Shown here in pieces: positions 27,884 through 62,056 of a stretch of 64,000 bases of DNA. Position 1 is the first letter of the stretch, and every line of letters starts with the position of its first letter. The translations under genes and the position numbers were made by a program. This DNA comes from Pseudaquidulcibacter saccharophilus. Its GTDB lineage: Bacteria > Pseudomonadota > Alphaproteobacteria > Caulobacterales > Aquidulcibacteraceae. The notes beneath the pieces were generated by a model. It searched no databases, was not told where the DNA came from, and was given only the letters and a program-made list of their open reading frames with translations. Location: assembly GCF_019455445.1 (NCBI RefSeq), contig NZ_JAHWUS010000002.1, forward strand, positions 186,001-250,000. Reading direction: 5' to 3'.

Positions 27884-28140
27884 TTAACCATTCCTACTCA
27901 ACCTTTCAAACCGTTCCTCCAATTCCTTCATTAAATCGTCGCGTTGTTTTTGGCGTGATTGATAGTCTTCTGGTGCATGGTTTGCGCCGATTAATCGCGA
28001 AATCTTTACGACTTTTTCTAAAATCACTAATTGCCTCCGTGCGCTTTCGGTTTCGCCATCAATAAGTGATTGCAAAATTCGTTCGCGCACTTTGGCAAAA
28101 GTTCGTCTAATTCCTTGTTGGTAGTTGGGGTTTTATTCAT
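27884..28140 (-). pseudogene. Small helical protein, probably frameshifted, beside the terminase-like gene
   Basis: An open frame of 68 codons (28090-27884, GTG start) encodes a charged coiled-coil protein ending LMKELEERFERLSRNG. Upstream in another frame an ATG at 28140 opens MNKTPTTNKELDELLPK, which would run straight into VRERILQSLIDGETESARR if one base were inserted near 28090-28096. This looks like a single gene of about 85 residues broken by a one-base deletion, or a sequencing error. It is divergent from the terminase-like gene. No family recognised. Confidence 0.5.
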
Positions 28141-28221
28141 CGTATTATTATTGCACCTAAAAGATTTGGGGTGGATAGGGGGGCGCAATCCCCATTTTTT
28201 ATACCCGTCATAAAATATGCC

Positions 28222-28542
28222 ATGACTTATGAACCATTACCAAATCCAAAACACGAAAAATTCGCCCTTGCACTTGCGCGGGGTATGTCCAAAGAAAATG
28301 CCTATGCCGAAGCAGGGTTTATTGGCGGGCGGACTGCCGCAAGCCGATTGTCAACAAATGTCAACATTTTGGCGCGTGTGCAAAAATTGCAAGAAATTGC
28401 GCAAAATCGCAATGAAATCAATGTTGATACATTGTTACAAGAACTCGAAAAAGCGCGAAAATTGTCAATTTCTTTGGGGCAAGGCAGCGCCGCCGTTTTG
28501 GCAACAATGAGCAAAGCAAAATTATTAGGGTTGATGAAATGA
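28222..28542 (+). CDS. Phage terminase small subunit-like protein
   Basis: 106 residues from the ATG at 28222. KHEKFALALARGMSKENAYA, then AGFIGGRTAASRLSTNVNIL and RVQKLQEIAQN, follow the terminase-small-subunit pattern of a DNA-binding helix-turn-helix (KxxxFxxxxxxGxSxxxAYxxAG, AASRLxxNxxIxxRVxxL). No large terminase, portal or other phage gene is near, so this is an orphan, either a prophage relic or a recruited DNA-binding protein. The alpha-helical C-terminus (LLQELEKARKLSISLG) is also terminase-like. Confidence 0.7.
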   Translation: MTYEPLPNPKHEKFALALARGMSKENAYAEAGFIGGRTAASRLSTNVNILARVQKLQEIAQNRNEINVDTLLQELEKARKLSISLGQGSAAVLATMSKAKLLGLMK

Positions 28543-28651
28543 TTAATTCCAAAGTCGCACTGAAAAAAATACAAAACCTACTAGATTTTATTGTCACTTT
28601 CGCTATTGGTAGCGGCATCAAGGGCAATTAATAATTTACGAAAGGTTCGTT

Positions 28652-31028: not shown

Positions 31029-31673
31029 ATGATGAAAGCATCTAATATTGCTTTGGTCTTATCATTATTTGCGGTTTCATCTTGCGGCGCATTGAATAAT
31101 AAAATTAACAAAGAAGTGGCGATTAACAAAAAGACGCTTATTAATTTTAGGGTCGATTTGATAAATCCTGATAGCAAAATGGCAAATGGTTTTGATAATC
31201 CCGCATTTAAACAGCTTCATGCTGATTTGGCAGAGGTTCTGCCGGATTTTAAACAAAACATTTGTGTTAATAGTCCAAATGCACCTTTAACAGATGAAAT
31301 TATTTCTAAATGTGCCGGCAATCAAAATTTTACAATTGGTGACATGATTGAAGATGCCACATCAATAGGTGTTTATGACCTAAACAAAGATGGTAAAGAA
31401 GATCTCATAATCGCAATGGGCGGCAATACTGGTCTCTCTGGTCTTGGTACATGTGGTGCAAGGCAATATCGGTTTTATGAGAATATTGGGAATGATTACC
31501 GCCCAATCGGCAAAGTGAATGTATTGAATGCGCAAACGCTTTATGTTTATGACAATGCCGGAAAAAACAAGTTTTCAAGCTTGTTATGGAAAAGTGAAAT
31601 TGGCTGCGATGGTAATCCGTTAAAAGGTGAAAGCTATCAAAGTTACGATTATAAAAAAGCAAGTTATTATTAA
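31029..31673 (+). CDS. Lipoprotein with EF-hand/FG-GAP-like motif, paralogue A
   Basis: 214 residues. The signal peptide ends in the lipobox VSSC (Cys19), so the protein is probably lipid-anchored. The core contains DLNKDGKEDLIIAMGGNTGL, a Dx[DN]xDG calcium-binding-like loop, then GTCGARQYRFYENIGNDYRP. The same two blocks recur in the next two genes. The motif resembles single FG-GAP/VCBS repeat loops, but one copy per protein is not a propeller. Function unknown. Confidence 0.72.
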   Translation: MMKASNIALVLSLFAVSSCGALNNKINKEVAINKKTLINFRVDLINPDSKMANGFDNPAFKQLHADLAEVLPDFKQNICVNSPNAPLTDEIISKCAGNQNFTIGDMIEDATSIGVYDLNKDGKEDLIIAMGGNTGLSGLGTCGARQYRFYENIGNDYRPIGKVNVLNAQTLYVYDNAGKNKFSSLLWKSEIGCDGNPLKGESYQSYDYKKASYY

Positions 31674-31690
31674 ATAACGAGGGGGAATAA

Positions 31691-32284
31691 ATGAAATTTT
31701 CTGGTGCCTTGTTGGTTACATGCCTTTTGGTTGCTTCAAATGCTTATGCCGGCACAAAATATCCCATGCCTTTGATTTGGGATTATAATCCAACACAACA
31801 AATAAGAACTACATTATGGGAAAAGCCAACCATAAAAAATGACTTGACCGAAGTTTACAACGATTGGGTAAAAAGAAATTGTTATGGTATCGATGACATT
31901 GCGGCATGTGTTGCCGGCAATCCTGGATATTCCCAAAATGGTTTATTTGACGATATTGCAATCGCCACACCCGATTTAAACAATGATGGTAAGCGCGATT
32001 TGATATTATATATGGGTTCAAATACTGGGCTTATGGGGTCTGGCTCTTGTGCAATGACAGATGTTTGGTTTTATGAAAACACAGGCACAGATTATCGCAA
32101 TATTGGCAAAAGCGGTTTTGTTGTACGGGCTGATATTGCGCTTGGTGCCCCAAAGGCAAAGGGTAAATTTCGCGACATAGTTACAAATATCAAAAATGAT
32201 AGCTGTAATAATGGCAAAAAAATCCCGCCACAAATTGATAAATATAATTATAAAACAAATTCTTATTACGATAACGAAGGATAA
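31691..32284 (+). CDS. Secreted protein with EF-hand/FG-GAP-like motif, paralogue B
   Basis: 197 residues with a signal peptide (MKFSGALLVTCLLVASNAYA). TKYPMPLIWDYNPTQQIRT begins the mature protein, followed by CYGIDDIAACVAG, TPDLNNDGKRDLILYMGSNT and WFYENTGTDYRNIGKS. GAGGGGG precedes the ATG by five bases. Four to six cysteines imply disulfides. It aligns with the next gene nearly end to end, showing a recent tandem duplication. Confidence 0.75.
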   Translation: MKFSGALLVTCLLVASNAYAGTKYPMPLIWDYNPTQQIRTTLWEKPTIKNDLTEVYNDWVKRNCYGIDDIAACVAGNPGYSQNGLFDDIAIATPDLNNDGKRDLILYMGSNTGLMGSGSCAMTDVWFYENTGTDYRNIGKSGFVVRADIALGAPKAKGKFRDIVTNIKNDSCNNGKKIPPQIDKYNYKTNSYYDNEG

Positions 32285-32291
32285 ATATTTT

Positions 32292-32894
32292 ATGAAATAC
32301 ATTGCTTCTTTAGCTTTAATTTCATGCCTTTTCGCAAGTTCCGCCAATGCAAAAGGAAAATACCCAATGGAATTGATTTGGGATAGCGGTCCTTCGCAGA
32401 ATGTGCGCACTGAATTAGTTTCAAAGCCAACGATAAAAGCTGATATTCAACAAGCCTATGATGGTTGGGTTGAAAATAATTGCTATGGTCAAAAAGACTA
32501 TGAGGCATGTCTGAAAAACCCACCTAAGCCACCGCTTACAGATGTTTTTGATGTGCTCGCGGTTGCAACACCAGATTTAAACAATGACGGTAAGCGTGAT
32601 TTAATTATCTATATAAGTGGTGAAACCGGAATGTCTGGCAATGGTCGTTGTGGTATCATGGAAGTTTGGTTCTATGAAAATATTGGAACAGATTATCGCA
32701 GCCTTGGGAAGTCAGAATTTTTACATTCTAACCAATTCTATTTGGGTGCACCAAAATCAAAAGGAAAGTTCCGAGATATTATTACAAAAGATGTTGATGG
32801 CTTTTGTTCCGGTGAAAAGAAGCCTAAATTTATAGGAAATCCCTATGATTATAAGAAGGGCGTATATTTCCCATTATATATTGAAACACACTAA
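32292..32894 (+). CDS. Secreted protein with EF-hand/FG-GAP-like motif, paralogue C
   Basis: 200 residues; the ATG at 32292 gives the signal peptide MKYIASLALISCLFASSANA. KYPMELIWDSGPSQNVRTEL, TPDLNNDGKRDLIIYISGET and WFYENIGTDYRSLGKSEFL mirror paralogue B; FDVLAVATPDLNN and APKSKGKFRDII are shared as well. It starts seven bases after paralogue B stops. Its stop interlocks with the hspQ stop in CTAA (32891-32894). No function known. Confidence 0.75.
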   Translation: MKYIASLALISCLFASSANAKGKYPMELIWDSGPSQNVRTELVSKPTIKADIQQAYDGWVENNCYGQKDYEACLKNPPKPPLTDVFDVLAVATPDLNNDGKRDLIIYISGETGMSGNGRCGIMEVWFYENIGTDYRSLGKSEFLHSNQFYLGAPKSKGKFRDIITKDVDGFCSGEKKPKFIGNPYDYKKGVYFPLYIETH

Positions 32895-61663: not shown

Positions 61664-62056
61664 GGAAGTTGAACACAAGTGGACGGAAGGGCGTTTTTAC
61701 CACCCCGATAACCAAAATATTTTTCAATTAATGTGAACATTTTTAAACAATATTTACAATGTGTAACAGCGATTATTTCTAAAAAAAACAATTGATAATC
61801 AATTTGTTAAACCGATTATTAGTGCTTATTTTTTGAATTGCCCCAAAATGTTGACATTTGTTGACATCCACCAAATTTAATACCGGCAAAAACCCTGACA
61901 TTTCCTGATATTTATCAGGAATGTGTCAAGACTTGTAAAAAATATTATAAGGGCAAAATTGGGGACGGTAATAGTGTTTTTGCTCCCCCACGAATGACCC
62001 TATTAGCTTTGGGGCGGTTAGTGTTTTAGATATTTGTTTTTGATTGGTATGGCAAT
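61664..62056. other. 393-base convergent intergenic region with TGACA repeats
   Basis: Lies between gor and an HI0933-type gene that both end here, so no promoter is needed. It nevertheless holds TTGACA at 61851 and 61861, TGACA at 61896, and an imperfect palindrome centred on CCTGAT-ATTT-ATCAGG (61904-61919) closing with TGTCA at 61924. A small RNA or an eroded gene is possible; no open frame is convincing. Confidence 0.5.

Follow-up and report, generated by a model that had tools for sequence, protein, structure and literature searches.

A tailless orphan small terminase and a divergent gp1-type protein in Pseudaquidulcibacter saccharophilus: candidate parts of a split terminase of the resident gene transfer agent

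Introduction

Why would a gene resembling a phage small terminase subunit (TerS) stand alone in a bacterial chromosome, divergent from a small gene whose reading frame is broken by one base? This arrangement lies in a 64,000-nucleotide stretch of Pseudaquidulcibacter saccharophilus DNA, the window (C5:186001-250000 of the 2.8 Mb genome G000). A first-pass annotation made from the letters had described the two genes and suggested that they form a domesticated DNA-binding module.

The locus bears on questions that a review presents as open, namely how gene transfer agents (GTAs) choose their DNA and which protein is the TerS of the Caulobacter GTA (PMC11841831). According to the same text, the Caulobacter crescentus GTA has no known TerS, and deletion of the region upstream of terL left packaging intact (PMC11841831). 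The C. crescentus GTA and the one considered here are related alphaproteobacterial GTAs from hosts that NCBI taxonomy assigns to different orders, the Hyphomonadaceae being placed in Hyphomonadales.

We compared five genomes of the genus, G000 to G004, comprising the window genome and four relatives. G003 (Hyphomonadaceae bacterium UBA1933), the closest relative of the window genome, and G002 (Proteobacteria isolate HYPHO1) are metagenome-assembled genomes (MAGs). By kinship, G000 and G003 are not independent of each other, nor are G002 and G004.

Orphan small terminases without a C-terminal tail

The orphan gene, TerS-a (28222..28542, + strand, from its ATG to the end of the stop codon), encodes 106 residues predicted to form a helix-turn-helix (HTH) and a helical hairpin. 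It matches the PHROG family phrog_51, 'terminase small subunit', with an E-value of 7.9e-12, and Pfam Terminase_2 with an E-value of 1.3e-4 and 23.1 bits, under the curated cut-off of 26.1. The profile of the orphan proteins aligns over its full length with the TerS of Pam5 (21di, E 1.4e-23, residues 1-102 of the 134-residue chain). In the AlphaFold2 model (mean pLDDT 84.9), an HTH-like N-terminus is followed by a long helical hairpin; a Foldseek search with this model places known TerS structures on top, yet with E >1. The phrog_51 match and the Pam5 alignment uphold the initial description of the gene as terminase-small-subunit-like. Its identification as a phage-type TerS that retains the predicted DNA-binding and oligomerisation parts and is devoid of a C-terminal tail is well supported by sequence and model.

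Of 29 other TerS ORFs, 19 reach the end of the profile and then continue for 19-46 further residues, and the remaining 10 match part of the profile only. The orphans would therefore be without a TerL-binding C-terminal part of the P22 and lambda type, which is the part of TerS that binds the large terminase (TerL) in these phages, as described in PMC9611059. The orphan thus resembles phage TerS (Pam5, phrog_51, Terminase_2) in the HTH and hairpin, aligned over its whole length, and in a self-matching repeat within the gene (see below); it differs from them in having no tail and no adjoining terL, and in occurring as two copies per genome.

As had been reported, no phage gene was detected beside TerS-a: a PHROG search with the proteins of nine window neighbours had no match at E 0.01. 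The phage-like genes that surround an orphan terS in a phage satellite (PICI) are thus not seen among these nine neighbours, and no terL adjoins the orphan TerS genes at the loci inspected. A defence-system identity was rejected, as a PADLOC search with three proteins found no match.

The genus contains eight short TerS-like genes, two each in G000-G003; a third match in G002 is weak (E 0.10). They form two groups. TerS-a is found in the window and at G003 C4, G002 C3:584177 and G001 C15, whereas TerS-b is found in G000 and G003 (where a methylase gene and an rnhB-like gene, both named by eye, are close by) and at G001 C4 and G002 C3:122661. The chromosomal places of these genes differ except within the G000/G003 pair. 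No viral relatives were found for one TerS-b protein. TerS-like matches occur in 9 of 101 genomes (own plus relatives), and a search of 398 genomes of the order gave them in 16. G320, which belongs to a different family of this order, has a 132-residue TerS (L078 6843-7241, +) with no adjoining terL seen, and the halves of its repeat nearly match too. In the window, a 30-codon ORF (28539-28631, +) overlaps the TerS-a stop codon (ATGA), and its first 18 residues are the same in G003; this ORF could represent a coupled micro-gene or have arisen by chance.

The divergent partner is a gp1-type protein outside the GTA cluster

The divergent partner, trans-a, occupies 27884..28140 on the - strand. 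A 68-codon GTG frame (27884-28090) is offset by one base, near 28090, from an upstream frame with its ATG at 28140, which confirms the reported break. The G003 ortholog is a single intact frame of 91 codons with the upstream ATG (L003 1899-2174, +). Homologues confined to the GTG start would have spoken against the joined frame; this ortholog begins upstream of the GTG. A programmed -1 frameshift, one of the explanations first offered, is not supported and was rejected, because this ortholog is read in one frame without any such event. The break may be a mutation or an assembly error. Between G000 and G003, dN/dS over the 68 shared codons is 0.20, which makes this frame very likely coding; across the gp1-type genes, the values are 0.16-0.26.

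Whether the two genes always adjoin has a divided answer. In all three genomes that have it, a neighbour of the trans-a kind lies divergent to a TerS-like gene, including in G002, where the pair is at an unrelated chromosomal locus. In contrast, five of the eight orphan TerS genes have no such partner in the surrounding 16 kb.

The relationship to GTA gp1 was examined with an HMM built solely from the trans copies of this genus. Its targets were 1440 ORFs, 149 of them in the gp1 slot, which came from 60 regions upstream of terL in other genera. Of the 29 matches at E up to 20, 23 are in that slot, compared with 6 of 14 for the reversed profile and at most 8 (of 15) for 20 column-shuffled profiles; the best slot E-value is 0.0042 for the real profile and 0.13 for the shuffled ones. 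Profile-profile comparison of trans with cis gp1 gives a probability of 87.2% (E 3.9e-6), against 0.14% for the reversed profile and at most 0.30% for 20 shuffles; its cis gp1 side consisted of 12 ORFs that had been selected from 60 by eye, and the HMM search of the 1440 ORFs is the unselected test. When 18 loci of the genus (7481 ORFs) are searched with the trans profile, the five cis gp1 ORFs come 9th, 10th and 12th-14th, only two with low E-values of 4.6e-5 and 7.9e-5 and the other three with 0.08-0.16, and the cis profile recovers six of the eight trans loci with E-values of 2e-8 to 0.04. Beyond the genus, among the 398 genomes that the search tool assigns to the order of the window genome, the trans profile matches only G362, and this match is probably a cis copy, judged by its neighbours.

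The gp1 protein of RcGTA is 107 residues long, with listed relatives of 92-114 residues. In PMC6854486 it is described as having three helices, the third of which is required to bind TerL, via the ATPase domain; this binding is reported together with a need for gp1 in gene transfer. Like RcGTA gp1, the partner is small and almost wholly helical, with a two-helix coil and a conserved C-terminal third helix common to it and GTA gp1, the comparison having been made with gp1-slot ORFs of other genera rather than with RcGTA gp1 letter by letter. The model of the G003 copy (mean pLDDT 75) is all-helical with three helices, and no HTH family was found in the partner. Unlike RcGTA gp1, the partner is encoded away from terL, none of the trans copies being immediately upstream of it, and is divergent from an HTH-containing TerS-like gene, and of the copy beside terL only the third-helix segment is left. 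The assignment of trans-a as a homologue of GTA gp1-type TerS, comprising a hairpin and the conserved third helix and located outside the GTA cluster, is well supported by these profile comparisons and by the predicted structure.

All five genomes of the genus contain a GTA-type terL, and the ORFs that follow it have similar sizes and order, by eye, in the four genomes whose contig continues. Just upstream, in all five, a micro-ORF carrying the gp1 tail motif overlaps terL in another frame. As merely 14-34 codons separate the upstream stop from the tail motif in each case, there is no room for a coil. Judging from these frames, the gp1 within the cluster has been reduced to the putative TerL-docking segment, and the coil-plus-tail protein is therefore found in the genus solely in trans.

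A second member of the trans family, trans-b, is present in all five genomes beside one conserved gene, which resembles a peptidoglycan-binding protein by eye. The tail of the G001 copy (L075 7508-7996, -) would be a separate short protein, like the cis micro-ORF, owing to an in-frame TAA between coil and tail.

Two side observations concern small proteins of this kind and of the window. Several gp1-slot ORFs upstream of terL in other alphaproteobacteria (L102, L111, L137, L139, L142, L147 and L154) have, by eye, an apparent N-terminal HTH-like segment, which conflicts with the statement that known GTA TerS proteins have no DNA-binding domain. Three neighbouring window genes (starting at 31029, 31691 and 32196, within 31029-32894) appear by eye to encode related small proteins with a common C-terminal stretch.

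A promoter-like motif common to the pair and the GTA operons

All eight TerS-like genes are preceded by a promoter-like motif consisting of [TA]ATCC, a spacer of 19-20 bases and a -10-like hexamer (consensus-like form TATCC-N19/20-TATAAT), which begins 36-38 nt before the start codon. Upstream of TerS-a it reads AATCC-N19-TAAAAT (28186..28216, +) and begins 36 nt before the ATG. The motif of the partner (28147..28178, -; TATCC...AATAAT) scores in the top 1.1% of 264 background genes. These scores come from a position weight matrix (PWM) made from the eight TerS-like promoters only, the motif having been spotted by eye before scoring both in these sequences and in the cis promoters. With this reservation, all eight TerS-like genes fall in the top 1.5% of the background in leave-one-out scoring; the five cis GTA operons all rank within its top 2.7%, and the three trans-a genes within its top 3%. 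By sequence, the motif is thus common to the orphan TerS genes, their trans-a partners and the GTA operons.

The strict motif alone is not specific: G000 contains 32 sites, several of them within genes, against 18 for a reversed-pattern control. One such site precedes a thiC-like gene (by eye). A phage promoter identity was rejected, since the motif precedes 3 of 239 viral terS genes, compared with 1.4% of shuffles, and so shows no enrichment there.

A self-matching repeat inside terS

The TerS-a coding sequence contains an iteron-like direct repeat, TGTCAAC-AAA-TGTCAAC (28349..28365, +), formed by the codons for L-S-T-N-V-N. In general form, the terS codons for R-L-x-x-N-x-x hold TGabcde-AAA-TGabcde, with a period of 10 bp. 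The G003 TerS-a has TATCAGG-AAA-TGTCAGG at the same place, and among the TerS-b genes TGATAGC occurs twice in three and TGATAGC/TGATAGT in the fourth.

The generality of this arrangement was assessed with 248 TerS domains collected from viral contigs by protein similarity, 247 of them usable, from which 125 representatives at most 80% alike locally were drawn. The comparison set each of the five variable bases in the first heptamer against the base ten positions further on. Within a gene, 3.51 of 5 bases match, and between genes 1.91, with 2.26 as the highest value in 2000 shuffles; agreement at 4 or more of the 5 positions is seen in 81 of 125 genes, where 12.6 are expected between genes and 25 is the maximum. 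At a 60% cut-off, this agreement holds in 30 of 61 genes (3.7 expected, maximum 11). The excess is greatest at a lag of 10 (1.26; next, 0.5 at lag 21) and at this one place. Random synonymous codons that keep the protein give a mean of 2.27 (2.49 being the highest of 300), and 19.8 genes then match at four or more positions (maximum 32). A clean set, from which the genes that suggested the idea and anything more than 60% like them had been removed, contains 55 representatives; their within-gene match is 2.98, where comparison between genes gives 1.64 and synonymous codons give 2.12, and 27 of the 55 agree at 4 or more positions (expected 3.1 and 9.6, maxima 8 and 19). A different asparagine column, taken as a negative control, shows no excess (1.86 vs 1.74). 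The repeat is absent at the level of 4 of 5 from 44 of the 125 viral genes. The exact window heptamer pair lies within the TerS ORF in 12 of the 31 viral contigs that contain it.

The viral set thus has a DNA-level constraint inside the terS coding sequence. Since the heptamer varies between viral genes and yet its halves match, the terS repeat is, on these comparisons, a DNA-level site, and it is probably pac-like. In P22, pac lies within the terS gene and is a 22-bp asymmetric sequence, as given in PMC9611059; by analogy, the natural reading of the repeat is as a candidate recognition site of TerS, likewise inside the terS coding sequence. Unlike P22 pac, it would be a direct repeat with a 10-bp period that is dispersed over a bacterial chromosome, its recognition being what we infer.

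Dispersed chromosomal elements

The pattern TGTCARSAAATGTCARS, with at most one mismatch, has 36 matches in G000 and 48 in G003, against none for the reversed-pattern control. It has 2 matches in G002 and 1, with one mismatch, in G001; none was found in G004 or in five genomes of other genera. The matches form 23 clusters in G000 and 28 in G003, the TerS gene counted, so that the window TerS repeat type occurs at about 22 other places in G000 and 27 in G003, of which the G003 cluster at C8:406691, a lone one-mismatch match, may be chance. The elements comprise box A, with two copies of TGTCAGG, and box B, with two of TGTCAAC; the starts of the boxes are 26-83 bp apart in the 27 elements with both recognised. 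The window contains one such element (61850..61974, -), with box B at 61850-61866, a box A-like repeat with one mismatch at 61894-61910 and the promoter-like motif at about 61944-61974, all on the - strand.

We aligned 37 elements (20 of 22 from G000, 16 of 27 from G003 and 1 from G002). In 34 of the 37, a promoter-like motif scoring over the 95% level of the background precedes the boxes in the same orientation, mostly 60-77 bp before the first of them; it is found on the other strand in 1 of the 37, and in 4.2% of shuffles. Six motif-plus-repeat places that were inspected all lie outside long ORFs. The TerS-b repeat occurs outside terS at three places in 0.62 Mb of sequence (with overlaps), each behind the motif in a looser pattern; two of the three are independent, L172 having been picked by the motif. 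As the elements carry the own repeats of TerS-a and TerS-b, both orphan families appear to have chromosomal elements.

An RNA element was rejected, since Rfam gives no match in ten loci (eight with elements) and only a tRNA in the window, and since no conserved fold was detected (27 sequences, with a consensus energy near -3.5 kcal/mol and a mean z of -1.1). A gene beside one G003 element (L265, about 700-2100) resembles, by eye, what we take to be a DpnI-type nuclease, and is absent from the matching place in G000.

Discussion

A tailless orphan TerS, a partner with a putative docking helix, a common motif and a dispersed repeat are most simply read together as a split small terminase. On this reading, to which we assign a probability of roughly 0.4, the pair would be tied to the resident GTA and would steer packaging to dispersed pac-like sites. 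The gene identities are well supported, and the function is one we infer from them. Both genes would likely be expressed together with the GTA. During GTA production, the orphan TerS would bind its own repeat and the dispersed copies, supplying DNA binding and the ring without a docking tail, and the gp1-type partner would supply the docking helix and dock the large terminase. Packaging of host DNA would then begin preferentially at the dispersed repeat sites, which may mark where packaging of the host's own DNA starts. The suggestion of a domesticated module is supported in the sense of a phage-derived DNA-handling module; the link to the GTA, the common motif and the terS repeat are additions to it.

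Several observations argue against the split terminase. G004 has a GTA and no detected orphan TerS, and the orphan TerS genes of G001 have no divergent partner. In G002 the divergent pair is present, yet just one repeat copy lies outside the gene. The trans-b genes are mostly without the motif (one of five in the top 5%), and the orphan TerS genes evolve fast, with dN/dS of 0.46 and 0.52 compared with 0.09 for terL. Because G002, G001 and G004 do not have the full set, three rival explanations stay in play.

The best placed of these, which we nevertheless consider unlikely, is that the orphan TerS has become a transcription factor whose HTH acts on the TATCC motif or on the repeat and controls the partner, the GTA operon and the elements. 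The divergent gene arrangement, the lost tail and the position of the common motif, near -35 of the TerS-like and trans-a genes and also before the GTA operons, would all suit a regulator, as would the two of six motif-plus-repeat places (L170 and L172) at which an ORF of >100 residues starts within 200 nt. The other four places have no such ORF, and the repeat lies within the gene rather than in its promoter and is present in viral terS genes, before which the motif is not enriched.

It is also possible, with a low probability, that the dispersed elements are non-autonomous mobile repeats of which the orphan terS genes are larger relatives, the link to packaging being one of ancestry only. 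Four of the 12 sites that were compared do differ in occupancy between the two species, since on one G000 contig two of ten sites are unoccupied in the matching G003 stretch and two further G003 sites are empty in G000; the differing places of orphan terS among G000/G003, G002 and G001 fit mobility as well. Against it, the other eight of those ten sites are occupied in G003, no terminal inverted repeats or target duplications were seen by eye in two clear occupied/empty pairs, and a plasmid or phage origin of the repeats is unsupported, as one element searched against plasmids and phages gave no match.

Least probable, and in our view improbable, is that the genes are functionless relics or act as decoys, poisoning the terminases of phages that infect the cell. 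The window copy has a broken frame, the G001 trans-b an in-frame stop and the TerS-like genes a fast rate of change; against this, the gp1-type genes have dN/dS values of 0.16-0.26, the motif is held in common with the GTA and PADLOC finds no defence match.

The limited library of literature that we searched contained no trans-encoded or split GTA TerS, no dispersed GTA pac sites and no terS repeat of this kind. The genus provides concrete candidates for TerS genes outside the GTA cluster, together with candidate DNA sites. The self-matching terS repeat, present in many phages, would offer a way to predict a pac-like site from sequence alone. A stronger form of the proposal, which we hold to be rather doubtful, is that packaging is addressed, with the orphan TerS and the relocated gp1-type protein forming a split recognition complex that starts at about 20-27 chromosomal pac-like sites; if this were true, the cell would choose which of its genes are exported.
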